DNA from: Cupriavidus pauculus
GTDB taxonomy: Bacteria; Pseudomonadota; Gammaproteobacteria; Burkholderiales; Burkholderiaceae
NCBI RefSeq assembly: GCF_022179805.1
Contig: NZ_BPUO01000003.1
Coordinates: 372,001-436,000 of the forward strand
Direction: 5' to 3'
Length of the DNA stretch: 64,000 nucleotides
The notes below the pieces were generated by a model. That model saw only the letters and a program-made list of their open reading frames with translations, searched no databases and was not told the DNA's origin. Of this stretch, positions 13,420-30,094 are shown in pieces. Numbering within the stretch: position 1 is the stretch's first letter; every line of letters begins with the position of its first letter. The position numbers and the translations under genes are program-made.

Positions 13420-16400
13420 ATGACGACTGTTCGCGAAAGAGCGGTAAAGAACACCAGGCGCTCGTCTGGGGCCGGGCGGCTTCCAAGACCCTGCTGTCTG
13501 GTGCTCGGTGTTGCCGTCGCGGGCTTGACCGCGGAAGCGGAAGCACAGACATGCGCGACGATCGGTACGGGCCAGGTTTCCGCCACGAATGTTTGCACTG
13601 TGGGCGCGCCGTCCATCACCAGTACTGTGGCAAATCCGGTTGACGTGACCGCCAGCGGCGCCGGTGCCAATGTCACTGCCAACAGCGTCACGCTGGGTCT
13701 GTCAGTGGCCAACGCCATTGGCGCAAACGCCGACTCCGGCGCCCGAATCAACTTCAATGGCGGCGCGATCAACACCACATCGAATACAGCCGCGCTTGCA
13801 AATGGTCAGATCGGACTACGCGCAAGCGGAAGCGGAAGCTCGATCTTCGCGGATGCCGTAGTGATCAACATGCGCCCTGCTGCGGGGGTCTCCTTGACCG
13901 CCGTCCGGGCAGAGGCTGGTGGCGCGATCACGCTGACGAATAGCACTGTCAATATCGGGGGCGTTGGCAGTGGCAGAAACTTTAATCATGGATTGATGGC
14001 AAGCGGAGCCGGCAGCAGCATCTTTGCCACCGGTGTGAATGTTACCGCTGCATCGACGTTCTCCGACGCAGCACGCGCTGAACTGGGCGGCACGGTGACA
14101 CTGATAAGCAGTACGCTTGCTGCAACGGGCGCAGGAAATGCCACAAACGGACCATCGGCCGCTGCCGCCGCGGTGTCGGGAGGAACGTTGGCGATCAGTG
14201 GGGCAAGCACCAGTCTGAGCGGGGGCGTCAACAATCAGTCTCACGGACTCTACGTCTCCGATGCCGGCTCATCGGCGACTGTATCGGACGCGATCATCAC
14301 GGCAATAGGCGGCAGTGGCTCGACCGGTGTTTTCGTGGAGAACGCGGGCAGCGCCACCATCTCGGATAGCTCGATTAGTTCTGCGACTTACCGCGGCGTT
14401 TGGGCAAACGGCAGAGCGACCGTCAGTCTGACGAATTCCACGGTCACTACGCTCATCGCCAATGCAGTCGCCGCCGGCGATGGCGCCAGCGTGACCATCA
14501 ACGGCGGCACCTTGGTAGGCAGCGGCCAGGTACCCACGCTCGCGGTCAGCGGCGTGAACTCGACGGTGACCACCAACAATGTCGCGATCCGCAGCAACGG
14601 CAACGCGAACGCGCCTGGGGTATATGTCGGGGGCGACGGCCTGGCGACAATCAATGGCGGCACGGTCGAGACGTTCGGCACGACCGAGCGCGCCCAGCGG
14701 GTCAAAGGCATCGCGGCCAATACCCCGAATGCGCGACTGGTCACCAACGATCTCATTATCCACACGCATGGGGGCGAAGCCATTGGTGTGGCTGCAGATG
14801 ATGGAGGAAGTGTCTTCATAAATCGAACGTCGGTGGTGACCGATGGACGCAACGCTATCGGTGTCTATGCCGGTGTGGACCCCACCAAACCAGGCCAGGC
14901 CATCGTCGTCGCCAATGCATCAAGAATTGAGACCTTCGGTGAAATTGCTCACGGTGCCCAGGCACAAGCCCAAACATCGCTTGCCATCCCCGCAACGGTC
15001 ACGCTAGGCGAAAACACGACTGTGCTCACCCATGACACTGGCGCGGTTGGCTTGCGTGCCATCCTTAAGGGGAAAGTCGAAGCCCTGCAAGGCAGCACGG
15101 TGACGACGGAAGGCGCGGCAGCGCATGGCATGTTCGCACTCGGCGAGCAGAGCTTAGTTCTGCTGAATAACGCTACCGTGACCACCGGGGGAATCTCGGC
15201 GCATGGTGGCCTCGCTCAGGATGGCGGACGGATCAGCGGAACGAGTGCTACTGTTACCGCGACAAACGCCAATGCCGCCGCCCTTTTCGTCGCCGGCGAT
15301 CTCGCTCCTACGGCGGCAGATTTCACATCGTCTACGCTGACCAATCGCAGTGGGCCCACCATCGCGTTGGCTGGTTCGGCGACGGTCACGCTGGCCAACT
15401 CAAGGGTATCAGGCAGTGGTGAATGGCTAAGGGTTGGCACGGCCGCTGATTTCCCGAGCCTGCCGGGAGCGGAGGACCCCGTTGGCAGGCCAGAGTCCGT
15501 GGCGCCCGGAGATGATCCCTCGACACCTCCAGCCCTGCTGTCGATTTCGGCAACGGGTACATCGTCGCTTGTCAAGAAGCCGCTTGCTTTACCCGGACTC
15601 GCTACCGTCGATGCGTCTGGCTCCACGTTGAGCGGCTCCGCCTTAACAGTCTCAGGCAGCACATCGAATGTCACCTTGCGCAATGGCTCCGAGTGGGACA
15701 TGACAGGAAGTTCGAACCTCACGAACCTTACCAATGATGCGAGTCGAATTCTTTTCTCCTCACCGCTTGCCGGCGCGTTCAAGACGCTTACGGTGAGCAA
15801 CTACACCGGTACCAATGGCGCATTGATCGGACTCAACACCGTGCTTGCGGCAGACAATTCACCTTCGGACAAGCTCGTCATGGATGGTGGAGTGGCCAGT
15901 GGCCTGACGGGCCTACGAATCACCAATGCGGGGGGCGCGGGAGCGGTGACGCAGGCAAACGGCATCATGGTGGTGGACGCCGTGAACGGTGCAACGACTA
16001 CAGCAGGCTCTTTTGCGCTATCGGGCCGGGCCGTGGCCGGCCCATATGAGTATCGGCTATTCCGCGGCAGCGTAGATGGTTCGAATTCTGATGCGTGGTA
16101 CTTGCGTTCGGAGCAAGCCGCACCGCCCACGCCTCCGGTTCCGCCAGCCCCGAATCCCAATGTCATCGTTCCGCTGTTTCGGCCAGAGGTAGGTGCATAC
16201 CTAGCCAACCTGCGGCTCGCCGCCGGTTTCCTTGTGCACAGCCTTCATGATCGACTCGGCGAGCCACAATGGACGGAACAGCAGACGTTCGAGAACGACG
16301 ATCAGCGCCGCGGCTCCGGCTGGGTACGCCTAGTGGGCAAGGACATCGGCTCCCGCACGAGTAGTGGCACCTTCGACGTGCAAAGCACGGCATGGATGCT

Positions 16401-17136
16401 GCAGTTGGGCACCGACGTGGCGCAGTGGTCAGTCTTTCGCGGAGACGACCGACTGCACGTGGGCGGCATGCTCGGCTATAACTGGGGATCGAGCACTGGC
16501 CGAGCCACCGGAAATCCCTTCAAAGCGGACAGCGACGTGCAAGGCGTGAACATCGGCGTCTATGGGACATGGTTTCAGAACGATAAATCGCGCCTCGGCT
16601 GGTACGCCGACCTGTGGGCGCAGTTCGGCTGGTTCACGAATCACGTCAATGGAGAGCTTCTGCCCTCCGCCAGCTATAGCTCGAAGGTTCTTGCGCTATC
16701 GGCGGAGGCAGGCTACGCATGGCTACCCAGTTTCACACGTGACTGGGTGATAGAACCGCAGGGGCAGATCATTTATGTTCACGGGTACCAGGGGACGTTC
16801 AACGAACCGACCGGCACGCAAGTGGGCGGTGCCGATTCGGATGGCGTCATCACCCGCCTGGGTGTGCGAATGCATCGCACCTGGATCGATGGCAAGGGCT
16901 ACCGCTACCAGCCATACGTCACCTTGAACTGGTGGCATGACTCCGTGAATAACCAAATCGCGCTCAACAGCGTTGCCATGGGCGACCTGTATCCGAGCAA
17001 CCGATACGAAGTGAAACTCGGCTTCGATTTGCAGGGAGGTCGCGGCTGGACAGGATGGAGCAACGTTGGCTGGCAATGGGGCTCCCAGTCCTATCACGCG
17101 CTTATTGGGCGGGTCGGTGTCAAGTACACATGGTGA
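13420..17136 (+). CDS. Autotransporter (type Va) with beta-helix passenger
   Basis: This 1238-residue type V secreted protein starts at ATG 13420, which has GGGAGGAGAAGCG upstream; the frame is open for 31 more codons. A long charged signal peptide ends near residue 45 (LTAEAEAQ). Residues of about 46-890 form a Gly/Asn/Ser/Thr-rich passenger with many repeated beta-helix rungs of the type ITLTNSTVNIGG or VTINGGTLVGSG, like pertactin/AIDA proteins. A proline-rich linker near residue 905 (PPTPPVPPAPNP) is followed by a roughly 310-residue beta-barrel translocator (GSGWVRLVGKDIGSR onward) that ends in KYTW. It is probably displayed at the cell surface, possibly in adhesion. No protease motif was seen. 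Confidence 0.93.
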   Translation: MTTVRERAVKNTRRSSGAGRLPRPCCLVLGVAVAGLTAEAEAQTCATIGTGQVSATNVCTVGAPSITSTVANPVDVTASGAGANVTANSVTLGLSVANAIGANADSGARINFNGGAINTTSNTAALANGQIGLRASGSGSSIFADAVVINMRPAAGVSLTAVRAEAGGAITLTNSTVNIGGVGSGRNFNHGLMASGAGSSIFATGVNVTAASTFSDAARAELGGTVTLISSTLAATGAGNATNGPSAAAAAVSGGTLAISGASTSLSGGVNNQSHGLYVSDAGSSATVSDAIITAIGGSGSTGVFVENAGSATISDSSISSATYRGVWANGRATVSLTNSTVTTLIANAVAAGDGASVTINGGTLVGSGQVPTLAVSGVNSTVTTNNVAIRSNGNANAPGVYVGGDGLATINGGTVETFGTTERAQRVKGIAANTPNARLVTNDLIIHTHGGEAIGVAADDGGSVFINRTSVVTDGRNAIGVYAGVDPTKPGQAIVVANASRIETFGEIAHGAQAQAQTSLAIPATVTLGENTTVLTHDTGAVGLRAILKGKVEALQGSTVTTEGAAAHGMFALGEQSLVLLNNATVTTGGISAHGGLAQDGGRISGTSATVTATNANAAALFVAGDLAPTAADFTSSTLTNRSGPTIALAGSATVTLANSRVSGSGEWLRVGTAADFPSLPGAEDPVGRPESVAPGDDPSTPPALLSISATGTSSLVKKPLALPGLATVDASGSTLSGSALTVSGSTSNVTLRNGSEWDMTGSSNLTNLTNDASRILFSSPLAGAFKTLTVSNYTGTNGALIGLNTVLAADNSPSDKLVMDGGVASGLTGLRITNAGGAGAVTQANGIMVVDAVNGATTTAGSFALSGRAVAGPYEYRLFRGSVDGSNSDAWYLRSEQAAPPTPPVPPAPNPNVIVPLFRPEVGAYLANLRLAAGFLVHSLHDRLGEPQWTEQQTFENDDQRRGSGWVRLVGKDIGSRTSSGTFDVQSTAWMLQLGTDVAQWSVFRGDDRLHVGGMLGYNWGSSTGRATGNPFKADSDVQGVNIGVYGTWFQNDKSRLGWYADLWAQFGWFTNHVNGELLPSASYSSKVLALSAEAGYAWLPSFTRDWVIEPQGQIIYVHGYQGTFNEPTGTQVGGADSDGVITRLGVRMHRTWIDGKGYRYQPYVTLNWWHDSVNNQIALNSVAMGDLYPSNRYEVKLGFDLQGGRGWTGWSNVGWQWGSQSYHALIGRVGVKYTW

Positions 17137-17266
17137 CGAAATTTTCCTCCGGTCGAAATGGCAATCGAGTTCTAGACGACGTCGCTCCCCCCGAGGCGAG
17201 CATCGGATCGCTGATAAAGACGCATCGAGAAATAGAGTGGCCAGCGATGGTGACTTGCAGCGAGGG

Positions 17267-17651
17267 CTATTCTTCGTTGGCCGCTTTACCTCCAAGAGAA
17301 GTCATAACTTTGAAGGGCCGCGAATGGCTGAGTAGGGTCGGTTCCTGCCCGCTGACCTCGGCAGGGCGGATCTCCGGATCGCCATACGCGCAGGCGCCTG
17401 ATGCCAATCGAGCGTCCGCCAAGTCCGCGCATGTTTCTCCGCCTGAAGCGCTGCAGCCTCTGCATTTCTCGTGGGTAGGCCTCGTCGTTGCAGCAAACGG
17501 GCCATGCGCTTGCCGATATGGTTCTCAAGGCGACCAAGCAGTGTAGCGCGGCCGCACTTTCTTCAAACTGCTCTGCCAGAACAAGGAAGAAGCGCTGGCC
17601 TGCGACCTCGCCTAGGTAGGCCGCTTGAAGGGCTTCATTGTTCAGGCTCAT
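17267..17651 (-). pseudogene. Frameshifted small gene coupled to acid phosphatase
   Basis: The ATG at 17651 overlaps the acid phosphatase stop as ATGA, a sign of translational coupling. The first frame gives EVAGQRFFLVLAEQFEESAA and LHCLVAL. Restoring one base at about 17535 continues sensibly in the next frame as ENHIGKRMARLLQRRGLPTR and EKHARTWRTLDW. A second break near 17400 may lead to a third frame (GDPEIRPAEVSGQEP). The intact product would be a mostly helical protein of roughly 125 residues. I do not recognise a named family. It is most likely a pseudogene. Confidence 0.5.
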
Positions 17652-18490
17652 TTTTCGCCGAGCTTGTCACTTTTGATGATTCTTGCCGCTGCTTTCGTGT
17701 CGGCGCTACAGCCTTTCTCCAGCACCGGCCGGGTTTCGGCCGCCTCGACCAACTCGTGTCTTGCAGCCTGCAAATCAGCTTGAAATGTGGCATCCGCATG
17801 GAGGCGTGCGACCACGCCTGCGGCGATCGATTGTCCTGCCTGGATATCGCTTTGCCAATGCACGCCGCAAACCGACCGACTCTGTGCAAAATCCCGGCCT
17901 CGATCGAGGAGCAAGTCCGTACGGGCGGGAGCCAGTTCGACCAACAGGAGAGCCCATGTCCACCCAATGGCCGCGTGGCCGGACGGATAGGAGCCTTCCT
18001 TGGCCAAGGCGCCCTCTTCATCTGGCGTGCAGCTCGCCTCCTTGTTCGCGACGAAGGGCCGGACACGCCCCCAGTGGTTTTTAGCAGCATAAGTGGCAAG
18101 ACCAGCGTCAATCATGCTCCTTCGCAGCAGCAGATATAGCCGCGGCGTGGCCTTCTCACTGACTGAAGCGCCCAGGGCGCACACAAACGCCCCCGCTGCG
18201 GCCGGAAAGCGCAAGTTGCTGTCAGCGATCGCCTGGTCCCAACGCGGTGCGCCTTTGAAGTTCCGGCCCGACCGGTACGCCTCCTCGTCTGCCGCTAGTG
18301 CTACCGATCCTGAGGCAGGCGGCGGGGGCAAGAGCGCGAGGCTGTCAGGCAATGCGTCACGAGACAAATAGCCGGCCGGGATACCCGGACGAAATTCCGG
18401 AACAGGACTAGCACTATGCGTGGCCGCTGGGCCCGAACAGGCCACAAGCACAATGGCGGGCAAAACAGAAATCAGGCGAATGCAATTCAT
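17648..18490 (-). CDS. Class A acid phosphatase, lipoprotein (PAP2 superfamily)
   Basis: This 280-residue protein belongs to the bacterial non-specific acid phosphatase class A/PAP2 family. All three motif blocks are present: KNHWGRVRP (K-x6-RP), YPSGHA, and SRSVCGVHWQSD (SR-x5-H-x3-D), with the nucleophilic and acid/base His residues. The N-terminus has a hydrophobic stretch followed by a lipobox-like VACS, so the protein is probably anchored in a membrane and faces the periplasm. It would release phosphate from organic phosphomonoesters. Its start (ATG 18490) is divergent from the first DUF1254 gene. Confidence 0.9.
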   Translation of the reverse strand: MNCIRLISVLPAIVLVACSGPAATHSASPVPEFRPGIPAGYLSRDALPDSLALLPPPPASGSVALAADEEAYRSGRNFKGAPRWDQAIADSNLRFPAAAGAFVCALGASVSEKATPRLYLLLRRSMIDAGLATYAAKNHWGRVRPFVANKEASCTPDEEGALAKEGSYPSGHAAIGWTWALLLVELAPARTDLLLDRGRDFAQSRSVCGVHWQSDIQAGQSIAAGVVARLHADATFQADLQAARHELVEAAETRPVLEKGCSADTKAAARIIKSDKLGEK

Positions 18491-18757
18491 GAATGTCAGC
18501 CGATACAGATGTCGAGTCGGACCGCTCCAATGCCTGGAGTCGGCTCTCCCCCGCTTGTATATCGGATCGCCCTGCATTGAATCCCCTCTCTTTTCGAGAG
18601 GGTTCCCTGCCACGATCGGAGAGCTCCAATTCGTGAAATGCATGCTACTCTTTCGACTCGGACGAGTGAGACGGCACAGTGCAAACAAGCGGGTGACTGC
18701 GCCGCGAGTTGGCGCAGTCGCCGCAAATAATTTGATATTCCTAGCGAGGAATTTTTC

Positions 18758-20065
18758 ATGAGACGAATGCTTGCCGCGATCATTGCCGCCTTGACGCTGG
18801 TGCCTGTAGCGCAGGCTCAGCCTGCACGGCTCGGCGATCAGGAAATCACGGACACGTATATCTATCTGCTTTCCCGTCTGTTGGTCCTGCGGCAACAGCA
18901 ACTCGACTTTAAGGGTGGTTTTCAGTGGAACAAGTTGATCCACCGGGAGCCCGGCGATGTCCAGTGGCCGAATCCCAATCTCGATGTCGCCTATTCCGAG
19001 GCCTGGGTTGCCGTAGATGAAAAGAGTTGCCTGCTTGTCTCTGTGCCGAAGATCACGGGCCGCTACTACACGGTGCAGTTCCTCAACGGCTGGGGTGAAA
19101 CCGCGGCCAACATCAATGAGCGCGTATTCCCGCGACATCCGAGCGGGGATTTCGCTGTCTGCCTGAAAGGAAGCGCAGTGAAGCTCCCACGCGGAACGCA
19201 GCGCGTGGATGTGCCGGTAAAGACCATGCGCGTGTTATCGCGCGTTGAGCTTGGTGCCGACTGGAAAAAGGCCGTGGCGCTGCAAAGGCAGTTCAAGCTC
19301 CGCCCCACGGGTAAGCCGGTGCTCCCCACGGTGCCGGAAATCCCGATGTTCGATATGGATAATTTGCCTGGCGCCGAGGCCTTCGATTCCGCCGAACTCG
19401 CGCTCGAAAGCGAGGCCGACATCAATCCGGGCATGCAAGCATTGCAGAAGAATGCGCGCGCTATTGCCATGGCGGTCAAGGAACCGGCCGAGCGCCAGCG
19501 CGTTGACCAGGTGATCCGCACCAAGGCATTTGCCGATATCAAGAAAGCGCTGCCCAATCTCGGTCACGGCACCGTGAGGAATAACTGGGCGCTGCCTTCG
19601 ACCTCCGGCGTCTATGGCGATGACTGGCTGGTACGTACGCTGATCAACTATGGCGGCATCTGGGCCAACACGCCCGAAGAGGTCATCTATTTTAAAGCCT
19701 TTGTTGACGCCGTCGGCGCGCCGCTGTCGGGGGACCATGCCTATACGCTGCATTTCACCAAGGACCAGTTGCCCGCGCGGTACGCGACCTACTTCTGGTC
19801 GGTAATCGCGGTCGATTCGGTTAACAGGCAGGTGCTACCCAATCCGCTGAAACGCTACCTGATCAACAAGGAATCGAAGCTGCAGTACGGCTCGGATGGC
19901 TCGCTGACCTTGTATTTTGCCGATGCGTTGCCGAAGGATGCACCAGAAGGCAACTGGCTGCCGACGCCCAAGGGACAACGCTACAGTCTGACCTTCCGTT
20001 ACTATCGCCCGCAGGGTGCGGTCGCAGAGAAGGCGTACTTTCCGCCGCCGCTCATGAAAAACTAG
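18758..20065 (+). CDS. DUF1254/DUF1214 periplasmic protein
   Basis: This 435-residue protein has a cleavable signal peptide (LTLVPVAQAQ|PAR). The N-terminal DUF1254 part includes the Asn-rich WPNPNLDVAYSEAWVAVD followed by GRYYTVQFLNGWGE. The C-terminal DUF1214 part includes DHAYTLHFTKDQLPA and YFWSVIAVDSVNRQ and ends with GSLTLYFAD and a P-rich WLPTPKGQRYSLTFRYYRP. The function of the family is not established; related proteins are found in the periplasm. The start is supported by GCGAGGA 8 bases upstream. A second family member follows 67 bases later, probably in the same operon. Confidence 0.9.
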   Translation: MRRMLAAIIAALTLVPVAQAQPARLGDQEITDTYIYLLSRLLVLRQQQLDFKGGFQWNKLIHREPGDVQWPNPNLDVAYSEAWVAVDEKSCLLVSVPKITGRYYTVQFLNGWGETAANINERVFPRHPSGDFAVCLKGSAVKLPRGTQRVDVPVKTMRVLSRVELGADWKKAVALQRQFKLRPTGKPVLPTVPEIPMFDMDNLPGAEAFDSAELALESEADINPGMQALQKNARAIAMAVKEPAERQRVDQVIRTKAFADIKKALPNLGHGTVRNNWALPSTSGVYGDDWLVRTLINYGGIWANTPEEVIYFKAFVDAVGAPLSGDHAYTLHFTKDQLPARYATYFWSVIAVDSVNRQVLPNPLKRYLINKESKLQYGSDGSLTLYFADALPKDAPEGNWLPTPKGQRYSLTFRYYRPQGAVAEKAYFPPPLMKN

Positions 20066-20132
20066 GACGCCGCACCGCTGTCCGGATGGGAAATGCCCGC
20101 AGACTTCAACGTTCACCCGGGAGGCATGACGT

Positions 20133-21605
20133 ATGAAATCCAGGAAGTCCTTCTCGACCTGCCATCTGGCCCTGATGACTGTCCTTGCTATCGGAAGTAC
20201 AGCCTATGCGCAGATTCCGGAAAGCAAGCCGACTCCATCCTCTGGCATTGCGGGTACGCCTGCGGGTACCGTGATGAGTAAGGAGTACGTGGCAACGGTT
20301 GGACGGATGGCCTACATCTGGGGCTGGCCACTGGTCAACAACCTGAATCGCTCCCTCGCCATGAAGGACTTGCCCGAGCCGGGCCGTATCGGGGGCATCG
20401 TCCCGGTGTCGCCGCCGGGCTATGTGTCCATGCTCACCGACTACATCGACGCCGCAGAGAGATTCGTCACTTGCCCGAACCAGGACACTGTATATGGCGC
20501 GGGCTTCCAGCGACTGAACAGCAAGCCAGTCATCGTGCAGGTGCCCGACTTCGGCAAGCGCTTTTGGGTCTACCAACTCTCGGACGCGCGAACAAATTCC
20601 TTTGGCAAGCTGGGTAGGCAGTACGGCACCAAGCCAGGCCTCTACCTGCTGGTGGGGCCCGACTGGAAGGGAGAGGTGCCCAAAGGTGTACAGGCAGTTA
20701 TTCGTTCGCCCACCGATCTGGCGACGGTATTGCCGCGCATCTTTCAAGACGACACGCCGCAGGACAAACACGCGATTCAGGCGGCCCTGAGCCAGGTAAT
20801 GGTCTATCCGTTATTGGAGTACACCGGCAAGATGAAGACGAAAGACTGGAGCACCACGCCATCCTTTCCTGCGCCACCGGGCCAAGGCGCGGGAGAGACC
20901 AAGTGGGTCGTGCCAGAGAAGTTCTGGGACGAACTGCCCGTCGTAATGAGTGAGGTACCACCGCTGCCAGGTGAGGAGGCCGTGTACTCGACCATCCGGT
21001 CGGTATTGGATGCGGCCGCTAGGAATCCGGACCTTAAGACAGTGCTCGTGGAGACGGCCGTGGCCGCTGAAGAAGGGCTCATCAAGCCGCTCTTCGAGTT
21101 CCGCAACAACGGGCGGCCCATTGGCAACGGCTGGAACTCACCATCGAATGGCGCGCGTTGGGGGTACGACTACCTTTCACGCGCCGCCACGGCGCGCTCC
21201 AACATGTATGACAACGCGCCGGAGGAAACCCGCTACATCTACACCGACGTTGACAAGACAGGCCAGCGACTTCATGGCAGCAAGCGCTACAGCGTGACCT
21301 TCGCCGCCGGGCAAACGCCACCGGTCAACGGCTTCTGGTCACTCACGGTCTACAACAAGGAGCACCTGTTCGAGCCCAATGCCCTCAACCGCTTCTCTTT
21401 AGGCACCAAGAGCAAGGATTTGAAGAAAAATGCCGATGGATCATTGACGCTGTACTTCCAGCACCAGTCGCCAGGCAAGGACAAGGAGAGCAACTGGGTT
21501 CCGACGCCGGTCGACGAGTTCTCTTTGTATATCCGCGCTTATTGGCCCAAGGCGAACATCCTGGAAGGGCGCTGGGTGCCGCCGCCGGCAGAACAGATGA
21601 ACTAG
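20133..21605 (+). CDS. DUF1254/DUF1214 periplasmic protein, second copy
   Basis: This 490-residue relative of the preceding gene product also has a signal peptide (LAIGSTAYAQ|IPE). The DUF1254 part is recognisable in MAYIWGWPLVNNLNRSLAM and CPNQDTVYGAGFQRLNSKPV. The DUF1214 part is seen in RYSVTFAAGQTPPVNGFWSL, then NKEHLFEPNALNRFSLGTKS and GSLTLYFQHQSPGKDKESNW. ATG 20133 follows GGGAGGCATGACGT. The two copies differ strongly, so the pair is an old duplication or two separately acquired members rather than a recent one. Function unknown. Confidence 0.9.
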   Translation: MKSRKSFSTCHLALMTVLAIGSTAYAQIPESKPTPSSGIAGTPAGTVMSKEYVATVGRMAYIWGWPLVNNLNRSLAMKDLPEPGRIGGIVPVSPPGYVSMLTDYIDAAERFVTCPNQDTVYGAGFQRLNSKPVIVQVPDFGKRFWVYQLSDARTNSFGKLGRQYGTKPGLYLLVGPDWKGEVPKGVQAVIRSPTDLATVLPRIFQDDTPQDKHAIQAALSQVMVYPLLEYTGKMKTKDWSTTPSFPAPPGQGAGETKWVVPEKFWDELPVVMSEVPPLPGEEAVYSTIRSVLDAAARNPDLKTVLVETAVAAEEGLIKPLFEFRNNGRPIGNGWNSPSNGARWGYDYLSRAATARSNMYDNAPEETRYIYTDVDKTGQRLHGSKRYSVTFAAGQTPPVNGFWSLTVYNKEHLFEPNALNRFSLGTKSKDLKKNADGSLTLYFQHQSPGKDKESNWVPTPVDEFSLYIRAYWPKANILEGRWVPPPAEQMN

Positions 21606-22059
21606 CGCAGCCGTTGCACCGGAGCGGGAGCAGGCTCGGGGGCGATCTCCTGGACGGTCACAGGTAAGATCGCTGCCCGACTGAAGCGATTCTGTGCAAT
21701 GGCTTCACGGGTGTCCGGCTCCCCTCGATTTATTGTTGGCATCAAGGCATAGCTGCCGGCAGTTCTCGGTAGTTCGGTGTGGGCAACCCAAGGCCGACAA
21801 AGATCTGCGGATACTTTCACGTATCAACACTCTTTCAGTGGCTAGCCGACGAATGACTGCTTGTTCTTGGGTACAGCCAAAGAGCATCCCGCGATTAAAT
21901 GGCAGTTCAGGGTCGGTAACGGTCTAAGGGAGAACTGAAGTACGGGCTGCACTTCATACCGTGAAGCCTGTGGAATGTGCAACCATAGGCTGAAGAGTTA
22001 TCAGCCCAAGACCTCCATTGCCGCACAACTCATGCGCTGTACGTTGTTGGAACGATAGT
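21606..22059. other. Intergenic region without recognised gene
   Basis: These 454 bases lie between the second DUF1254 gene and the convergent XRE gene. They are AT-richer than average. The minus-strand frame 21602-21820 is open but shows no recognisable domain. No terminator with a clear T-run was found. Confidence 0.4.
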
Positions 22060-22362
22060 TCAATCTCGCGTATTACTTTCAAACTCCCGTAGTTCCCGGA
22101 GTTGCGATTCAACGTTCGCAAGGATGCTCTGCTGCTCAGTCTGCGAACGAGTTCTCAAATAGGCAAGCGCTACCAACGTAAGCGGATGTACGTTAAGAGC
22201 ATCGGCAATGGAGTCGATCTTGTCGAGTGTCGGGCTTTTCAGTCCCCGCTCCAGGCTGCTGACATACGTCCGACTGGAGACCACATCTAGCGCCTCTTGC
22301 GGAACTTTACGAAATCGCCTCACAGTGCGCAGCGCACTACCAAAATTCTGTCTCAGCGTCAT
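22060..22362 (-). CDS. XRE-family HTH regulator
   Basis: This 100-residue protein has a lambda-repressor-like helix-turn-helix over residues 5-62 (NFGSALRTVRRFRKVPQEAL ... RTYVSSLERGLKSPTLDKID). It is followed by a hydrophobic stretch (LNVHPLTLVALAYL) and a C-terminal coiled-coil-like tail (QQSILANVESQLRELREFES) that may dimerise. It is divergently transcribed from the two-gene operon at 22520-23497. Its promoter is contained in the perfect inverted repeat at 22400-22430, so it very probably represses its own gene and perhaps the other side. No toxin-antitoxin partner of a known type is next to it. Confidence 0.88.
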   Translation of the reverse strand: MTLRQNFGSALRTVRRFRKVPQEALDVVSSRTYVSSLERGLKSPTLDKIDSIADALNVHPLTLVALAYLRTRSQTEQQSILANVESQLRELREFESNTRD

Positions 22363-22397
22363 GGGAAGAGCAGCGCAAATCCCACAATCTCGCTTCG

Positions 22398-22432
22398 ATG
22401 AACACTATAGGGCTACAATCTATAGTGTTCAA
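22398..22432. promoter_or_regulatory. Operator palindrome with overlapping divergent promoters
   Basis: A perfect 11-base inverted repeat, GAACACTATAG and CTATAGTGTTC with a 9-base spacer, occupies 22400-22430. On the minus strand TTGAAC (22432-22427), 17 bases and TATAGT (22409-22404) make a good sigma-70 promoter for the XRE gene. On the plus strand ATGAAC (22398-22403), 17 bases and TATAGT (22421-22426) make a similar one toward 22520. One dimeric repressor bound here would cover the -35 to -10 of both promoters. Confidence 0.82.
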
Positions 22433-22519
22433 TACGTGATGGTCACCGGATGACGGCTACTTTGGCGAGGGTGCTCTAGGAAGCCCCCTTAAAAAAGTGG
22501 CCTATTCGTTTTAAGGCAT

Positions 22520-22966
22520 ATGTTTCTGATTCAGGATGAAAATCGGTTGCCGCTTCCGTCGGCGTTGGCCGGCGACGGTGCAGGTGTGTGGGCAGTAATG
22601 GAGCAATGGACCCCCGGCGACTTACTGGTTCTCCGAGTGTCGAAGAAACGAGCTCGGGGCTTACCACGAATCGTTTGGATGGATCTCAACCGCGGCGCCG
22701 TCTCCTTACAACAGTTCCTTGATGGCACAGAGGTGTTGCGCGGCGCCGCAGTGGTAAGCACCGGTGGCGCCCGTCAGTGTGAGAACTGGTATTTGGATCC
22801 GTTGCGGGAGATACGAGTCGGCGTAAGTGAATACAGCGAAGCCCACGAGGCATTCTTAACCGCCACCTATTTCACGACAACGGCCGGCCGAGAATTTTCA
22901 GTACCGCACGGCTTTGCAACGCGCTATGCGCGGGGTCGGCGCGTCTGGCAGGCCCCGCAAACCTAG
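22520..22966 (+). CDS. Unknown protein in XRE-linked cassette
   Basis: This 148-residue soluble protein has no signal peptide or membrane helix. I do not recognise a family. Visible traits are MFLIQDENRLPLPSALAGDG at the start, a basic stretch (RVSKKRARGLPRIV), a WMDLNRGAVSLQQFLDGTEV segment and a C-terminal FATRYARGRRVWQAP. Only one Cys is present. The spacing to the exonuclease gene is 12 bases, so the two are probably co-transcribed from the promoter inside the palindrome. ATG 22520 has only a weak ribosome-binding site (TAAGGC). Base composition is less GC-rich than the flagellar genes, pointing to acquired DNA. Confidence 0.75.
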   Translation: MFLIQDENRLPLPSALAGDGAGVWAVMEQWTPGDLLVLRVSKKRARGLPRIVWMDLNRGAVSLQQFLDGTEVLRGAAVVSTGGARQCENWYLDPLREIRVGVSEYSEAHEAFLTATYFTTTAGREFSVPHGFATRYARGRRVWQAPQT

Positions 22967-22978
22967 TGCGCGAATGCG

Positions 22979-23497
22979 ATGACTGATACGCGATTTCATG
23001 ATGCGATGAACTGGTCAATGTCGCCCGAGAGCCACTATGGGTGGGGCAACCGCTACTTTATTGACACAGAATTCAGCGACTTTCAGGACCCTGAATTGCT
23101 CAGCATCGCTCTCGTTGGGGAGAGCGGGATTGAGTTCTACGGTGAGCGCACGGATTTTAATCCGGAGTGCTGTAGTGACTTCGTTCGAGCGATTGTGCTC
23201 CCGCAATTCGGTCAAATCGACGGCAGGGCGATGGCTGTAAGCAGCCTAAGACAGGAACTGCGTGAGTGGGTTGCAGCCATCCCGCCCAAATTCAAGCCTG
23301 TGATCTGCTACGACCATGCCGTGGACCTCGTCATGCTGCAATTTCTACTCGATGGTCAGTTGCCCCATCATTGGGCGTTCGAGAGTATCCGCGGGCGGCT
23401 CAACGCAGCACGCCGGGCGGCATACTTTCGAAAAAACGGCGGCGAACATCACGCGCTGCATGACGCCCGGGCAAATGCCTACGCCTGCGCTTTCTAG
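22979..23497 (+). CDS. DEDDh 3'-5' exonuclease, RNase AS-like
   Basis: This 172-residue protein resembles the Rv2179c/RNase AS branch of DEDDh exonucleases. ExoI is RYFIDTEFSDFQDPELLSIA (Asp and Glu metal ligands). ExoII is probably in YDHAVDLVML (Asp). ExoIII is HHALHDARANAYA, with the general-base His and the last Asp. All four acidic residues and the His are thus in place, so it should be active on RNA or DNA 3' ends with two metal ions. It is the second gene of the XRE-regulated cassette. ATG 22979 is used; later in-frame Met codons (MNWSM) are possible, as no strong ribosome-binding site is seen. Confidence 0.8.
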   Translation: MTDTRFHDAMNWSMSPESHYGWGNRYFIDTEFSDFQDPELLSIALVGESGIEFYGERTDFNPECCSDFVRAIVLPQFGQIDGRAMAVSSLRQELREWVAAIPPKFKPVICYDHAVDLVMLQFLLDGQLPHHWAFESIRGRLNAARRAAYFRKNGGEHHALHDARANAYACAF

Positions 23498-23561
23498 TAT
23501 CTTTGAGGATACTTATACGGTGCAGCCCAAGTCTCAGCTACCCGAAACGCAAAGTAATGCG

Positions 23562-23673
23562 TGTAGTGACAAAAAAGTCTGAGAACCAAGCCAGACAAAG
23601 CAAACCAAGCTTTCCAGGCCAAGGTTCTCAGATTTTAATGTCACGATTTCTCGGACTTTTTTGTTCAGTCACA
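23562..23673. repeat. Cluster of three related repeats, transposon-end-like
   Basis: Three copies of a motif of about 22 bases occur. Copy A (plus, from 23566) reads GTGAC, AAAAAAG, TCTGAGAACC. Copy B (minus, from 23644) reads GTGACATTAAAATCTGAGAA, then CC. Copy C (minus, from 23672) reads GTGACTGAAC, AAAAAAGTCCGAGAA. B and C are in tandem at 28-base pitch and A faces them. Outer bases are TGT at both ends (23562 and 23673). This resembles the repeated transposase-binding sites at the ends of Tn7/Tn5053-like elements. No transposase gene is present, and 5-base flanking duplication was not seen. Confidence 0.6.
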
Positions 23674-23691
23674 GCGGCATTCCCATGCCGC
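23674..23691 (-). terminator. Hairpin downstream of flgL, no T-run
   Basis: A perfect 7-bp stem GCGGCAT / ATGCCGC with a 4-base loop starts 11 bases after the flgL stop (23702). It lacks a U-tract in the flgL sense, so it may stabilise the 3' end rather than terminate. Confidence 0.35.
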
Positions 23692-23701
23692 CTCACTGCA
23701 A

Positions 23702-24937
23702 TCAAAGGAACCTGAACAGGTTCATTTGCTGGATCTGCATGAACGATTGCTGCGCGCCCTGCAGTGCAGTCTGGCGCTGGTAGTACTCGGTGATGGCCGA
23801 GGCGTAGTCCAGTTCGGTCAGGTCGGACAGCGACTTGGCGCTGCTCAGGTCGCGGTTCTCGCCGATGGTGTCCAGCGCGTCGAGTTCGTTCATGCGCGAA
23901 CCGACCGACGAACGCACGGTCAGCACGTTGTCCAGCGAGTTGTTGTTCTGGCGCAGGCCCGTGGCGATCACGTTCTGCAGGTTGGCCTGGGCCGCGGCCT
24001 GCGACGTGCCCGAGTTGATCGGCTGGCGCAGCGCGGTGATCACGTCCTTCAGGTTGGCGAACATGTCGGCGCCCGCCTGCTGGGCCGGTTGCACGGTGAA
24101 CGAATCGGCGTCGGCCGGGGTGCCCTTGATCGAGAACGACACGCCTGCCACGTTGATGGCGCCGCCGTCGACGTAGTCCGTCGCGGTGCCCACCGGGTTG
24201 CCGGTGGTCTGGTCGTTGATCACGTACTGCTTGTTGCCGGAAACCGCGTCGGTCTGGAACGTCACCTTCAGCGAATGGCCGTACAGCGGGTTGGTCGGGT
24301 CAGTTACCGAGATCGCGCTGAACACGCCCGTGCCAGCGTTGGCGGTGTTGCCCTTGATCACGTAGCCGGCGTTGGCGGTCACCGACTGGAAGACCTCGGC
24401 GCCGTTGTTGCCCGCTTCCATCTGGCGGGCCACGTCCACCTGCAGCAGCTGGTGTCCGGTGTCGCCCAGGTAGGTGATGTTGCCCGCGGCGTTGGCCGCG
24501 AACGGTGCCGAGCCGGACTTCAGGCCCGCGAACAGGTAGTTGCCGTTGCCGTCGTCGGCGTTTGCCAGGCCCACGAGCTGGTCGTACTGGCCTTGCAGGG
24601 CCGTTGCCAGCGATGCGCGGTCGTTGTCGCTCAGCGTGCCGTTACCGGCGTTCACCAGCAGCGTCTTGATGTTCTGCAGCGTGGTAGTCACCGTCGACAG
24701 CGTGTTTTCGGTCAGGCCCAGCGATGCGTTGGCCTGCTCGCGCGACTTGGTGTACTGGCCGTTCACGGCGAGCGACTGCGACACGCCCAGCGCGCGCGTG
24801 GCGGCGACGGGGTCGTCCGACGGCGTCAGCACGCGACGGCCCGTGGCGAGCTGCTGCTGCACGTGCAGCAGGCTCGACTGCTGGTTGTTCATCGAGTTCA
24901 GGCCCTGGTGATACAGGGTGGAGGTTGCTACGCGCAT
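23702..24937 (-). CDS. flgL: Flagellar hook-filament junction protein FlgL (HAP3)
   Basis: This 411-residue structural protein joins the hook, through FlgK, to the flagellin filament. The N-terminal flagellin-like coiled coil (RVATSTLYHQGLNSMNNQQS) with LATGRRVLTPSDDPVAA is diagnostic. The C-terminal coiled coil with DYASAITEYYQRQTALQGAQ and IQQMNLFRFL is also present. The middle is a variable domain. ATG 24937 has AAGGAATCACGCC upstream. It is the last gene of the minus-strand flg cluster, directly after flgK, and is probably transcribed with it as a late gene. Confidence 0.96.
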   Translation of the reverse strand: MRVATSTLYHQGLNSMNNQQSSLLHVQQQLATGRRVLTPSDDPVAATRALGVSQSLAVNGQYTKSREQANASLGLTENTLSTVTTTLQNIKTLLVNAGNGTLSDNDRASLATALQGQYDQLVGLANADDGNGNYLFAGLKSGSAPFAANAAGNITYLGDTGHQLLQVDVARQMEAGNNGAEVFQSVTANAGYVIKGNTANAGTGVFSAISVTDPTNPLYGHSLKVTFQTDAVSGNKQYVINDQTTGNPVGTATDYVDGGAINVAGVSFSIKGTPADADSFTVQPAQQAGADMFANLKDVITALRQPINSGTSQAAAQANLQNVIATGLRQNNNSLDNVLTVRSSVGSRMNELDALDTIGENRDLSSAKSLSDLTELDYASAITEYYQRQTALQGAQQSFMQIQQMNLFRFL

Positions 24938-24979
24938 GGCGTGATTCCTTCTTGTCCGGTGGTATCAGGGGGTCTGCAA

Positions 24980-26899
24980 TCAGGCGATGCTGACCAGCGT
25001 GTCGAAGATCGTGCTGGCCGCCTGGATGACCTTGGCATTGGCCTGGTACAACTGCTGGAACTTCAGCAGGTTCACGGTTTCCTCGTCCATGTTCACGCCC
25101 GACACCGATTGCTGGGCCGTGTAGATCTGGTTCGTGATGCTGTCCTGCGACGTCGATGCGATATCGGTCGACTTGGCCTTGCTGCCCACGTCGTTGACCA
25201 GCTGCGCGTACGCGTCGTTGAAGCTCGACGTGCCGTTGATGGTCTTGGCGGTCTGCAGCTTGGCCAGCTTGAGCATGTTGCCGTTGTCCGACACCGCGCC
25301 CGTGTTGTTCGACAGCGTGAACGTATCGCCATTCTGCGGCGTCCCGTTGAAGCTGAACGTCATGCCGCCGATCGTGAAGTCCACGCCGTTGGCCGTGGTC
25401 GTCGGGGCCGGCTGCGGTGCCAGCGGCGTGCCGGCTGCGTCCGAGAACACATACGCCGACGTTGCCGAGTTGTACTTCACCGTCAGCGGGCCGGTCAGCA
25501 GCGTGAACGGCGACGACACGTTGGACATCGAAGCCTTGACCGTACCGGTGTTCTGCGTGCTGGCATCGGCGCGAGCCGGCGACGATGCCGCGATCTTGGC
25601 AGGGTCGGTGATCAGCGAGTTGAAGCCGGCGGCGGCATTGCGCGTGGGCTGGATCTCGAACGAATCGTTGGCGTTCATCGCCACGTTGACGCTGACCGTG
25701 AAGCCATCGGCCGTCAGCGACATCGGGAACGTGGCCGAACCGGCCGCCTGGGAACCCACAACCTTGTTGTCCGACTGGCGAATCAGGTTGTAGTTGGTGC
25801 CGTCGAACTTCAGCGTGTAGTCGCTGGTGGTCAGGCTGCCGGCGTTGTCGATGGTTGCGGTGGCAATGGCGGCCGAGGTGTTCTTGTCGTTCTTGAACAC
25901 GGTAGCCGTACCCAGCGCGAATACGTCGCCGCCGATTGCGCCGTTCAGGTCGATACCGAGCTTGTGCTGGGCGTTGACGGTCTGGCCGATGGCCAGCGAC
26001 AGGCGGCCAATGGCGTTCTGCGCCGTATCGAGGGATTCCGAGCGGAAGCGCAGCAGGCCACCGATCGAACCGCCGGTCAGCGTGCTTTCCTCGGCTTCGA
26101 TCGAGTTGCCGTTCGGCAGCGTGTAGGCGATGGTGGTACGGCTCGGATCGGCCGACGATGGCACGGCCTTGATGTCGTACGAATCGGAGCCCATCACCAG
26201 CGGCTGGCCGTTGCCGACGAACACGTTGTACGTGCCGCCGTCCTGCACCACCACCTTGGCGCCAACCAGTTCGGTCAGCTTGCTCACTGCCTGGTCGCGC
26301 TGGTCCAGCAGGTCGTTCGGCGCGTGGCCGCCCGACGCGGCGGTCATGCGCGAGATTTCCTTGTTCAGGCTGGCGATCTGCTTGGTGTAGTCGTTGACTT
26401 GCGTCACCGTCGACGTCAGCTGCGTGTTGATGCCGTCCTGCAGTTGCTTGAAGTAGTCGCTCGACGACTTGATCTGGCCCGCCAGCGCCTGCGTGGCGGA
26501 GATCATGCCCTGGCGCGTGGCCGGGTCAGCCGGCGTATCGGACACAGCCTGCACGGCCGCGAAGAACTTCTGCATCAACGGTGCCAGGCCGCCCTTCTCG
26601 TCGGCCAGCAGGTTGTCGACCTGGCGAATCTGGTCCGCGTACGTCGACAGGTCGAAGCTTGCCGACGTGGCACCGCGCAACTGGCCGGTCAGGAAGCCGT
26701 CGTACACGCGCTGCACGGTGATGGTGTTCGAGCCCTGGCCGTAGAAGCCTGCGCCGGTAGCCTGGCCGCCAGCCGACGCGATGATCGTGTTCTGGCGCGT
26801 ATAGCCAACGGTGGCCGCGTTGCTGAAGTTGTGGCCGACCGTGGTAAGCCCGTTCTGGGCAACGTTCAGGCCCGAAAGACCAATATTAAACAGAGACAT
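24980..26899 (-). CDS. flgK: Flagellar hook-associated protein FlgK (HAP1)
   Basis: This 639-residue protein starts at ATG 26899 with the classical MSLFNIGLSGLNVAQNGLTT and a flagellar rod-type motif (VGHNFSNAATVGYTRQ). The C-terminus (VNMDEETVNLLKFQQLYQAN followed by AKVIQAASTIFDTLVSIA) is the axial-protein signature. It caps the hook and connects it to FlgL. A sigma-28-type promoter lies 66 bases upstream (26965-26992), so flgKL can be expressed late, separately from flgB-J. A long hairpin repeat lies between flgJ and this promoter. Confidence 0.97.
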   Translation of the reverse strand: MSLFNIGLSGLNVAQNGLTTVGHNFSNAATVGYTRQNTIIASAGGQATGAGFYGQGSNTITVQRVYDGFLTGQLRGATSASFDLSTYADQIRQVDNLLADEKGGLAPLMQKFFAAVQAVSDTPADPATRQGMISATQALAGQIKSSSDYFKQLQDGINTQLTSTVTQVNDYTKQIASLNKEISRMTAASGGHAPNDLLDQRDQAVSKLTELVGAKVVVQDGGTYNVFVGNGQPLVMGSDSYDIKAVPSSADPSRTTIAYTLPNGNSIEAEESTLTGGSIGGLLRFRSESLDTAQNAIGRLSLAIGQTVNAQHKLGIDLNGAIGGDVFALGTATVFKNDKNTSAAIATATIDNAGSLTTSDYTLKFDGTNYNLIRQSDNKVVGSQAAGSATFPMSLTADGFTVSVNVAMNANDSFEIQPTRNAAAGFNSLITDPAKIAASSPARADASTQNTGTVKASMSNVSSPFTLLTGPLTVKYNSATSAYVFSDAAGTPLAPQPAPTTTANGVDFTIGGMTFSFNGTPQNGDTFTLSNNTGAVSDNGNMLKLAKLQTAKTINGTSSFNDAYAQLVNDVGSKAKSTDIASTSQDSITNQIYTAQQSVSGVNMDEETVNLLKFQQLYQANAKVIQAASTIFDTLVSIA

Positions 26900-26964
26900 G
26901 TTCGTCTGACTCCGGATCGAATGGCTGGCCAGCGGCAAACGGCCGACGGCGGTGGATGTGTTGG

Positions 26965-26992
26965 TTATCGGCGTGAAGGGGGCACGACTTTA
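26965..26992 (-). promoter_or_regulatory. Sigma-28 (FliA) promoter for flgKL
   Basis: The minus strand carries TAAAG (26992-26988), 15 bases, and a perfect GCCGATAA (26972-26965), matching the FliA consensus TAAAGTTT-N11-GCCGATAA apart from the TTT and one extra spacer base. It is about 66 bases before the flgK start. Confidence 0.82.
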
Positions 26993-27107
26993 GCGCCGCA
27001 ATGGCCACGAATGCATCCAGATTGTGAGCATGCACTTTCATGAAAAGCCTCATCACAAAGCCGAACAGCGCGACGGTTGGCGGTCGCGCGTGGGGTGAAA
27101 TCTGTAG

Positions 27108-27150
27108 GGTGTTCTCCCCTCTCCCGCGACGCGGCAGAGGGGAGAACACC
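27108..27150. repeat. Long intergenic hairpin between flgJ and flgK
   Basis: There are perfect 15-base arms (GGTGTTCTCCCCTCT and its complement), with an inner CCGC/GCGG stem. It belongs to the CCCCTCTCC hairpin group. In the minus-strand transcript it follows the flgJ stop (27168) within 20 bases but has no T-run, so it could slow 3' decay or weakly separate flgJ from flgK. Confidence 0.85.
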
Positions 27151-27167
27151 AAATCAAACGGCAAAAA

Positions 27168-28190
27168 CTATGCCGACACCTTCTTCATGATCCGTACCAG
27201 CTTCTCGCCATACGCCGGATCCGTGGCATACCCTGCCCGCTGCAGCCCGTGGGCGGCTTCCTCGGCGTTCGAGGCGCTCACCACGCCGGCGTAGCGCGGG
27301 TTGTTGGTGATCAGGTTGGCGTAGTCACGGCAGGCTTCGTCATACGAGCCATAGGCCCGGAACTTCGCGCGTACCTTCTGCGGCTGGCCGTCCACGTATT
27401 CGGTGGTCAGGATCTCGGTGGTCGGGCCCTTCCAGTTGGCGCCGGCCTTGATGCCGAACACGTTGAAGGACGTCGTGCCATCGGGATTGCGGATCTCGCG
27501 GCGACCCCAGCCCGACTCCAGCGCGGCCTGGCCCACGATCAGCTTGGCAGGCACGCCCGAAGCGCGCGATGCGGCCATGGCGGGTTCGGCCAGGCGGTTG
27601 ACGAAGTTGCTGATGTGCTCGGGCGAATCGTCCGGCAACTGGCCCAGCTGGTTCTGGCCATTGCCTTGCCAGTCGGCCTGATTCTGGTACTGGCGTACGC
27701 CTGCGGTCGGGTTCCATGCGCCGCCCGGCAGCGTCGTGCCCACGGGAGGTGGGCCATCGGCATCGGTAGCACCGCGGCTGTCCAGCATCTGCGCCATCTG
27801 CGCGTCACGTGCGCTGGCGCCAGTGATGCCACCGGCCGCGTTCATGCCGGCCGGCAGTTGCGTGCCCGTGGCGCGCGCCAGCTGGCGGATCATCACATCG
27901 GCCAGGCCGATGCCGCGCGACGACAGCTGCTGCGACATCTGCTGGTCCATCATCGACATGTAGAGCTTGGTCTGCTCGTTGTCGAAGAGTCCGTCCGATG
28001 GCGTGGCGTCGCGCATGCTCTTGAGCACCATCTGCGTGAACACCGCCTCGAACTGCTTGGCGGCTGCCTGCAGCGTCGTGGAGTTGTTGCCCGCGCGGGC
28101 CTGGTTCTTCAGCGCTTCGAACCCCTGGGTGTCCAGGGCGAAACGCTGCGATACATCGGCCTGCGCGCCAAGCGTGGTACCCGCCGCCAT
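27168..28190 (-). CDS. flgJ: Rod-assembly protein / peptidoglycan hydrolase FlgJ
   Basis: This 340-residue protein has the two domains of proteobacterial FlgJ. The N-terminal rod-capping part (AAAKQFEAVFTQMVLKSMRD, with FDNEQTKLYMSMMDQQMSQQ) is followed by a Gly/Pro-rich linker. The C-terminal glucosaminidase-type muramidase (LIVGQAALESGWGRREI, with the catalytic Glu) follows from about residue 190. It opens the peptidoglycan layer so the rod can pass. Its start overlaps the flgI stop by a base, which is typical of tight flg operon organisation. Confidence 0.96.
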   Translation of the reverse strand: MAAGTTLGAQADVSQRFALDTQGFEALKNQARAGNNSTTLQAAAKQFEAVFTQMVLKSMRDATPSDGLFDNEQTKLYMSMMDQQMSQQLSSRGIGLADVMIRQLARATGTQLPAGMNAAGGITGASARDAQMAQMLDSRGATDADGPPPVGTTLPGGAWNPTAGVRQYQNQADWQGNGQNQLGQLPDDSPEHISNFVNRLAEPAMAASRASGVPAKLIVGQAALESGWGRREIRNPDGTTSFNVFGIKAGANWKGPTTEILTTEYVDGQPQKVRAKFRAYGSYDEACRDYANLITNNPRYAGVVSASNAEEAAHGLQRAGYATDPAYGEKLVRIMKKVSA

Positions 28191-29374
28191 CAGATGATCT
28201 CCAGTTCGGCGCGCAGCGCGCCAGCGGCACGCATGGCTTCCAGGATGGTCTGCAGGTCGGCCGGCGTGGCGCCGAGCGCGTTCAGGCCTTTGACCACGGC
28301 GGCCAGCGATGCGCCTGCCTTCACGATCTGCAGTGATCCACCGTCGCGCTTCAGGTCGATCTGCGACACCGGCGCCACCACGGTCTGGCCCTGGCTGAAC
28401 GGCGCCGGCTGGCTGATCACCGGCTGGGTGTTGATCACCACCGACAGGTTGCCGTGCGCAATCGCGCAGTCTTCCACGGTCACGGTCTGGTTCATCACGA
28501 TCGACCCGGTACGGGCGTTCAGGATGACCTTGGCAGCGGCCTTGGCCGGCGTGACGTCGATGTTCTCCACGCGGGCCATGAAGCCCACGCGAGCCGTCGG
28601 CGTCTGCGGCGTGCGTACCTGCACCACGCGGCCGTCCATGGCGGCGGCAGTGCCCGGGCCAAGATTGCGGTTGATCGCTTCGACCACGCGCTCGGCGGTG
28701 CCGAAATCGGTGTCCTTCAGCTCCAGGTTCATGTAGCCGCCTTCGGGCTGGAACGACGGCACCGCGCGCTCGACGATGGCGCCGTTGGCGATGCGGCCCA
28801 CGGCGAGCTGGTTGATCTGGACCTTGCTGCCGTTGGCCGACGCACCCGCGCCGCCCACCAGCATGTTGCCCTGCGCGATGGCGTACACCTGGCCGTCGGC
28901 GCCCTTGAGCGGCGTCATCAGCAGCGTGCCGCCGCGCAGGCTCTTGGCGTTACCCATCGACGAGACCACCACGTCCATCTGGCTGCCCGGCTGGGCGTAG
29001 GCCGGCAGCGAGGCGGTCACCATCACGGCGGCCACGTTCTTGAGCTGCATGTTCTTGCCGGCCGGCAGCGTGATTCCAAGCTGCGACAGCATGTTGCTCA
29101 AGCTCTGCGTGGTGAACGGCGTCTGCATGGTCTGGTCGCCGGTGTTGTCCAGGCCGACGACCAGGCCGTAGCCCACCAGCGGGTTGTCGCGCACGCCCTG
29201 GAACGTGGCCAGGTTCTTCAGGCGTTCCGCATGCGCGGCGCCCGCGCCCAGGCCCAGTACGAGCAGGAGCAGCAGGCAGGCAAAAGATACCGCGCGACCT
29301 GAGCGGGAAATGCGGCCGGGCGGGGTGCCAAAAAACGAGCCTGGCTTTTGGAAAGGCATCGGAGGCAGAAACAT
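28190..29374 (-). CDS. flgI: Flagellar P-ring protein FlgI
   Basis: This 394-residue periplasmic protein forms the P ring around the rod in the peptidoglycan. It has a long N-terminal region with a signal peptide ([20 protein letters not shown], cleaved after HA). The mature start is [20 protein letters not shown], highly conserved, and [13 protein letters not shown] follows. The C-terminus is [20 protein letters not shown]. The start is uncertain: ATG 29374, which I list, overlaps flgH; ATG 29359 is also possible, and neither has a strong ribosome-binding site. The frame is open to 29476 through flgH codons. Confidence 0.95.
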
Positions 29375-29381
29375 GGCGGGA

Positions 29382-30086: not shown

Positions 30087-30094
30087 TCCCGTCC

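Follow-up and report, generated by a model that had tools for sequence, protein, structure and literature searches.

A recurring p148–exonuclease gene pair of Burkholderiaceae and the apparent exchange of its XRE repressor

A 148-residue protein (p148) and a DEDDh exonuclease form a recurring, real and mobile gene pair, one copy of which lies in the 64,000 nt stretch of Cupriavidus pauculus DNA analysed here (the window). Sequence comparisons give good support to the view that the repressor of this pair has been swapped while p148 and the exonuclease mostly stayed together, since the four XRE types found beside p148 do not cluster on the p148 tree and a relic of a type-A control region is still visible in the window, which carries a type-B XRE gene. 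The initial annotation described a small XRE gene divergent from a compact two-gene unit, and all three ORFs were recovered (Table 1). The exonuclease gene starts 12 nt past the p148 stop codon.

Table 1. Features of the cassette in the window and of its immediate context.
Feature	Position	Strand	Evidence
XRE (Cro/C1-type HTH) regulator, "type B", 100 aa	22060..22362	-	Pfam HTH_3, 30.5 bits; 74-79% identity to the G050, G009 and G053 XREs
Probable operator; 12-9-12 palindrome, both arms perfect (12 bp), spacer 9 bp	22399..22431	.	Pattern counts; core beside type-B XRE gene
Relic of type-A XRE control region	22436..22466	+	Alignment to type-A copies; type-B cassette similarity ends at 22431-22435
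p148, 148-aa protein, first of gene pair	22520..22966	+	22-member family alignment (A5); dN/dS <0.2 where finite
DEDDh 3'-5' exonuclease, PF16473, RNase-AS-like, 172 aa	22979..23497	+	Profile matches, conserved residues, confident model
Inverted 19-mer repeats, probable transposable-element end, between cassette and flgL	23566..23664	.	Similar repeats near flgL in L138, L139/L185
flgL (named by eye); cassette sits at its 3' end; context, outside cassette	23702..24937	-	

The second gene of the pair matches the Pfam family Rv2179c-like (PF16473; 28.8 bits, cut-off 27), PHROG 2259 (57.1 bits) and the NCBIfam model of RNase AS (NF033638), the last at 47.4 bits against an equivalog cut-off of 200, so that it does not qualify as an equivalog. 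The catalytic residues noted as visible in the initial annotation are indeed conserved (D29, E31, D112, H157/H158 and D162) and, with the gathering score, place the protein in PF16473. Among solved structures, those nearest to the exonuclease profile are of mycobacterial Rv2179c (PDB 4oke, 6s0m and 4hec; E about 1e-13), and the structure model is confident (mean pLDDT 86.8). The window enzyme is thus like RNase AS (Rv2179c) in its PF16473 domain and DEDDh residues, but unlike it in its low score against NF033638, its accessory distribution and its pairing with p148. RNase AS-like genes had been taken to be usually single housekeeping genes, which does not fit this branch: the exonuclease is patchy, being present in 46 of 299 family genomes (E 1e-20), and relatives occur in 43 plasmid records, 2 phage records and 18 viral contigs. 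In the plasmid, phage and viral sequences its settings vary, following a HigA-type gene and a 68-aa gene, following HipA-type genes, or lying near a relaxase gene. In L111 and L112 the exonuclease is found between DNA-binding-like and transposase-like genes (named by eye).

Small DEDD nucleases have also been described from Actinomycetes and Clostridia as diDNases, which are DEDDy and NrnC-like; according to the accessible part of that account (PMC11706625), their genes belong to genomic islands, have HTH or HipA genes as neighbours and are often close to defence systems. The gene context resembles that of the window exonuclease, but the active site does not: the latter is PF16473-like and has a conserved HHALxDA motif, i.e. 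DEDDh rather than DEDDy. In the searches made, p148 showed no resemblance to the diDNase partners as given in that part of the account (PMC11706625).

The first gene of the pair had been left without a family in the initial annotation, and the sensitive profile check likewise gave no known family, housekeeping or other. There was no match to p148 in Pfam, PADLOC or NCBIfam and one PHROG at E 0.15; the 22 family members gave only stray matches to Pfam (best E 0.076). The p148 profile matched one chain among the solved structures at E 0.5, which was rejected, and a structure prediction from four sequences failed (pLDDT 31.7), so that no claim is made about its fold. In alignment A5, from which L025, L036, L076 and L077 were left out, no histidine is invariant or nearly so, and an HExxH-like site is therefore absent. 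The family is accessory, being present in 22 of 398 family genomes. It was found in 4 of 399 order genomes, two of which are weak matches from outside the family and were not counted as p148 (G607 at E 7.5e-4 and G527 at E 5.7e-5, the latter within a frame of 642 aa). Of 369 class genomes, none matched except that of the window. Three plasmid records carry p148; none was found in phage records or in viral contigs, where 44 stretches matched a pattern in one search and none encoded a relative. A match in G034 was dropped as a frame shadow, as judged by eye. P. caribensis has a second p148-like place.

Both p148 and the exonuclease are under purifying selection and are not chance ORFs. In 21 pairs of seven copies, dN/dS was 0.05-0.19 for p148 (dS saturated in two pairs) and 0.06-0.21 for the exonuclease (dS saturated in one pair); many of the other dS estimates exceed 1 and are rough. 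Of the 22 genomes with p148, 19 have an exonuclease gene, intact or broken, after it in the same orientation. In two of these 19 the exonuclease gene is broken (G008, and both copies of G052), and in the remaining three (G212, G377, G423) p148 stands without an exonuclease in the stretch examined; counted by copy, those that lack it there are L032, L033, L066, L076 and L077. Pairwise distances of the two proteins are correlated (r 0.645, 18 loci; none of 2000 permutations as high), which shared host descent would also produce. Viewed from the exonuclease, 13 of the 29 loci that were read are p148 loci, and the other 16 have no p148 within 1.5 kb on either side. The initial annotation had named independent scatter of the genes, or a known housekeeping family for p148, as observations that would speak against its reading, and the 16 exonuclease loci without p148 go half way towards this. 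The exonuclease also decays, with broken copies in L023, L025 and L027/L036 and remnants in L020, L138 and L139; the L020 remnant, of 27 residues, lies elsewhere in the window's genome (G000:C9:3984-4064). A duplicated housekeeping RNase AS brought next to an unrelated gene by chance would agree with the nearest family names, Rv2179c-like and RNase AS, but is very improbable in view of the NF033638 score, the patchy distribution and the adjacency to p148 in 19 of 22 genomes.

In one genus, g20, all ten loci with both genes have a HAD_SAK_2 gene, or a remnant of one, between p148 and the exonuclease; the 11 p148-exonuclease loci outside this genus, among them that of the window, all lack one. 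In L116 a HAD_SAK_2 gene immediately precedes an exonuclease that has no p148. The Pfam name refers to RNA-repair proteins. The layout of two short adjacent genes beside a divergent XRE gene is also that of a toxin-antitoxin unit, in which p148 or the exonuclease would be toxic, the other would neutralise it and the XRE protein would regulate both, and exonuclease relatives do occur beside HipA-type and HigA-type genes. Neither gene of the pair matched a recognised type II toxin family in Pfam, PHROG, PADLOC or NCBIfam. In L023 the exonuclease is broken beside an intact p148 frame, a truncated exonuclease stands without p148 in the stretch examined of L138, and ten loci have a HAD gene inside the unit, all of which make such a unit improbable. 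A double-ribonuclease toxin-antitoxin system (PMC10714953) was considered as an analogue from the available part of its description only.

Control of the cassette by the XRE protein is very likely, judging from the intergenic sequence. The control site mentioned in the initial annotation was confirmed, between the XRE gene and p148, as a perfect 12-9-12 palindrome with arms TGAACACTATAG-9-CTATAGTGTTCA. The pattern CACTATAG-9-CTATAGTG, with up to 3 mismatches, occurs once in the window against 0.02 expected, and CTATAG-9-CTATAG has a single site genome-wide, against 4 per strand for the backward control pattern. Three promoter-like hexamers overlie the palindrome where 1.1 are expected, which is weak evidence. 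Of 267 family genomes searched for the 18-base core CTACAATCTATAGTGTTC, 11 contain it, with 13 sites between them (backward control: none). At all 13 a type-B XRE frame, the same type as in the window, reads away from the core; taken in its longest form, this frame starts 10 to 52 bases ahead of the site. The proteins of L165 and L166 are identical, so the 13 sites are not all independent, two being near-copies. The palindrome is therefore very probably the operator of the type-B XRE gene itself, and the presence of a conserved palindrome next to the XRE gene at every core site is as expected of a self-regulating XRE protein with a divergent target.

The gene on the opposite side of this operator differs from site to site. 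It is p148 only in the window, a 150-aa protein at three sites (L162, L165 and L166, in genomes G050, G009 and G053), a DUF2958 protein at six (L159, L161, L167, L169, L170 and L171; PF11171 was confirmed by Pfam in two of these loci, and the other four were named by eye), an HTH-containing 235-aa protein at one and a transporter, named by eye, at another. The last site has no frame of at least 60 aa starting within 260 bases on the other side. A type-B XRE gene with a near-identical operator, GAACACTAAAGAACTACAATCTATAGTGTTC, is also found beside p148 copies L033 and L077. The type-B XRE gene and the site to which its product presumably binds thus form a unit of their own, which also serves unrelated genes. 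The 150-aa proteins score 7.2-8.6 bits against the p148 profile, compared with 2.6 for the best of 200 shuffles and 6.2 for the best of 111 other proteins. This weak, full-length similarity is suggestive rather than established, and they were not counted as p148; with the same XRE type and operator, they are possibly a second branch of the p148 family.

A divergent XRE gene accompanies 23 of the 26 p148 copies, and is of type A in 13, type B in 3, type C in 4 and type D in 3. There is none in reach of L066, L076 (where the contig holds about 420 bases upstream) or L036; L027 and L036, which have an identical degenerate fused frame, were counted once. When the XRE types were placed on a p148 tree of 23 copies (without L036, L076 and L077; L033 and L032 on long branches, and 8 of the 20 inner branches open), 9 changes were required, against a mean of 9.6 for shuffled types, and 75 of 200 shuffles were as low. 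Regulator type thus does not follow p148 descent. The p148 genes of L073 and L074 are 94% identical in DNA, yet their upstream sequences are only 23-45% identical; L074 and L026, conversely, have an upstream block that is 83-96% identical and p148 genes that are 72% identical. The XRE gene and its leader can be swapped together, as one segment that extends to the start codon of p148.

In the window, similarity to the type-B cassettes of other Cupriavidus genomes spans the XRE gene and the palindrome, and similarity to the type-A control region starts where this ends. One of these genomes, G050, has a type-B cassette with the 150-aa protein at the same place, the 3' end of flgL, and a cassette of this kind is a plausible donor of the XRE gene and operator now found in the window. 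As the XRE type changes among p148 copies, a fixed three-gene system was rejected. The grouping of three genes in the initial annotation stands insofar as p148 and the exonuclease are a recurring two-gene unit with a divergent XRE gene; the XRE gene is no fixed member, for four types serve p148, and the type and operator seen in the window also serve unrelated genes.

The cassette is accessory and mobile, as the initial annotation had proposed for its setting, although the neighbours of the window copy are flgL, flgK (both named by eye) and two DUF1254/DUF1214 genes (Pfam), and no defence island is evident. The latter two genes adjoin each other to the left of the cassette (18758-21605), and each has both domains. 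Transposon-end-like repeats had also been noted, and were verified: a 19-mer of the type GTGACAAAAAAGTCTGAGA is present in inverted copies, at a distance of 37 bases from the flgL end. The genome of the window has a second cassette (C3:328621-329601; exonuclease 72% and p148 77% identical, type-A XRE), which is flanked on its XRE side by a DUF3701 integrase gene and by two genes of TnsD type that score 48.8 and 38.8 bits against a cut-off of 32.4. Genes for TnsD/TniQ, TniA, TniB or a DUF3701-type integrase adjoin 7 of the 26 p148 copies, in stretches of unequal length: TnsD/TniQ-type genes in the window's genome (G000) and in G006, TniA/TniB-type genes in G010, and integrase genes beside L032 and L063-L065. 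The 16 kb of the window around the cassette (14520-30519) gave no match to those transposition genes. In their position beside TnsD/TniQ or TniA/TniB genes these cassettes are like the cargo of Tn7-like transposons, as characterised in the portion of the literature source available (PMC8649781), whereas the window copy has end-like repeats only; a position between element ends and beside transposition genes was found in part for L019, L021 and L022.

Exonuclease DNA lies downstream of flgL in 3 of 30 flgL loci, namely in the window, in G011 (truncated) and in G006 (a short remnant). The G011 and G006 loci have 19-mer repeats like those of the window, and in G006 the element lies on the same contig as flgL. 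We infer that the window copy was left at an element insertion site at the flgL 3' end. In G006, a stretch downstream of flgL without long frames (L139, within 1-1150) contains short interspersed repeats of the kind CGCTAGAAGCACGAT. In G053 and G009 (L180 and L181), a few kb separate a type-B cassette from a short piece that resembles the 3' end of flgL (87% over 53 bases), as if the piece had been carried along.

The initial annotation likened the cassette to a defence or stress module. Its mobility, its pairing and its control site agree with this; a defence role would be a reasonable interpretation, as some relatives lie beside defence genes, but neither p148 nor the exonuclease matched a defence model in PADLOC. 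The scan for defence neighbours covered a selection of loci and had no control set. A Pfam scan of five neighbouring or cassette proteins revealed no defence gene beside the window copy. Downstream of the exonuclease of the second cassette are an LmuA-like gene (41 bits), a 176-aa gene, a gene for an SMC-type ATPase and then an AAA_21 gene, the first three resembling Lamassu in their arrangement; HNH-type and Septu-like labels given by eye to neighbours of this copy were not borne out by Pfam. On the Burkholderia plasmid of L033, a divergent p148 is followed by a cytosine methyltransferase gene, whose best-scoring model is that of a generic type II enzyme, by a gene for a DrmA-like protein (50 bits) and, further on, by a DUF1998 gene (from the annotation). 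In G377 (L077, 8898-13741) an HTH gene, a type VI retron reverse transcriptase gene (238.8 bits) and LmuA-like and LmuB-like genes lie downstream of XRE-p148, and a Ppl-like gene (86 bits) is found near L071.

That divergent copies of p148 head other genes in this way, L033 with its methyltransferase and DrmA-like genes and L077 with its retron and Lamassu genes, could be read differently, p148 being a co-regulator that forms with the XRE protein a controller head like CapH+CapP, and the genes after it being cargo. p148 is the first gene past the XRE gene in 23 of 26 copies, and the 150-aa protein of weak p148 similarity shares its XRE type and operator in G050, G009 and G053. A specific contact between p148 and the XRE protein is nevertheless argued against by nearly identical p148 proteins that stand beside different XRE types, and the lack of a conserved histidine argues against a CapP-like HExxH site; we regard a co-regulator as improbable. 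In the parts of the text that were available (PMC13373217), CapH+CapP, CapW/BrxR and CapK+CapS are alike in that a repressor heads exchangeable downstream genes. The window XRE protein, when compared with PADLOC, matches capH at 28 bits, below Control_protein (33 bits) and HTH_VI (39 bits); p148 has no peptidase, kinase or WYL match, and in the present cassettes the HTH part is swapped without p148. The Control_protein match and the intergenic palindrome also recall the control (C) proteins of restriction-modification systems, but the ORF list and PADLOC revealed no restriction-modification gene in the window cassette. Another defence island has a small repressor, RptR, as presented in the available part of its description (PMC12255303). 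No published description of an XRE-p148-exonuclease cassette was found among the titles and abstract openings listed, which covered part of the matches, the subscription literature lying outside this scope.

Alternatively, the beneficiary of the cassette might be the mobile element and not the cell. The exonuclease would then aid the element's transfer or help it to become established, perhaps by removing RNA or nucleotide signals of the host's defence, and the XRE protein would be an ordinary element repressor. The varied settings of the exonuclease relatives on plasmids, phages and viral contigs, and the transposition or integrase genes that adjoin 7 of 26 p148 copies, are in keeping with this. 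Some p148 relatives, however, lie with defence genes, and we consider such a putative transfer role unlikely.

To the reading that we prefer we give an even chance, namely that of a mobile accessory module in which an XRE-repressed p148 and exonuclease are released for the processing of 3' ends, with a likely benefit in conflict with phages or other elements. The XRE protein would bind the palindrome as an autorepressor and silence the genes on either side. Once repression fails, be it on arrival in a cell without the repressor, after DNA damage or under phage attack, synthesis of p148 and the exonuclease would begin; the exonuclease would shorten RNA or single-stranded DNA from 3'-OH ends, with p148 perhaps as a partner that targets or restrains it. 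In genus g20 the HAD phosphatase may first dephosphorylate damaged 3' ends, which the exonuclease would then trim, a pathway that the position of the HAD_SAK_2 gene between the other two would fit. The copy in the window would be a module left at the flgL 3' end that has taken its XRE gene and operator from another cassette.

A bolder proposal, which we hold as tentative and doubtful, is that p148 and the exonuclease, with or without the HAD phosphatase, are an undescribed conflict system of the Burkholderiaceae. It would be spread by Tn7-like elements and integrases, would process the 3' ends of damaged or foreign nucleic acid, and would have a plug-in repressor-leader that is swapped by recombination at the p148 start codon, making the system rewirable to different signals.

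Discussions of immune-operon regulators usually treat them as partners of the genes that they head. In the present case four repressor types occur beside a single recurring gene pair, and the junction can be seen at a start codon. Should the pair act in defence, this would be a natural experiment in the rewiring of mobile effector genes, and p148 would be a new protein family there; otherwise, the cassettes still show a repressor and its operator that move together from one unrelated gene to another.
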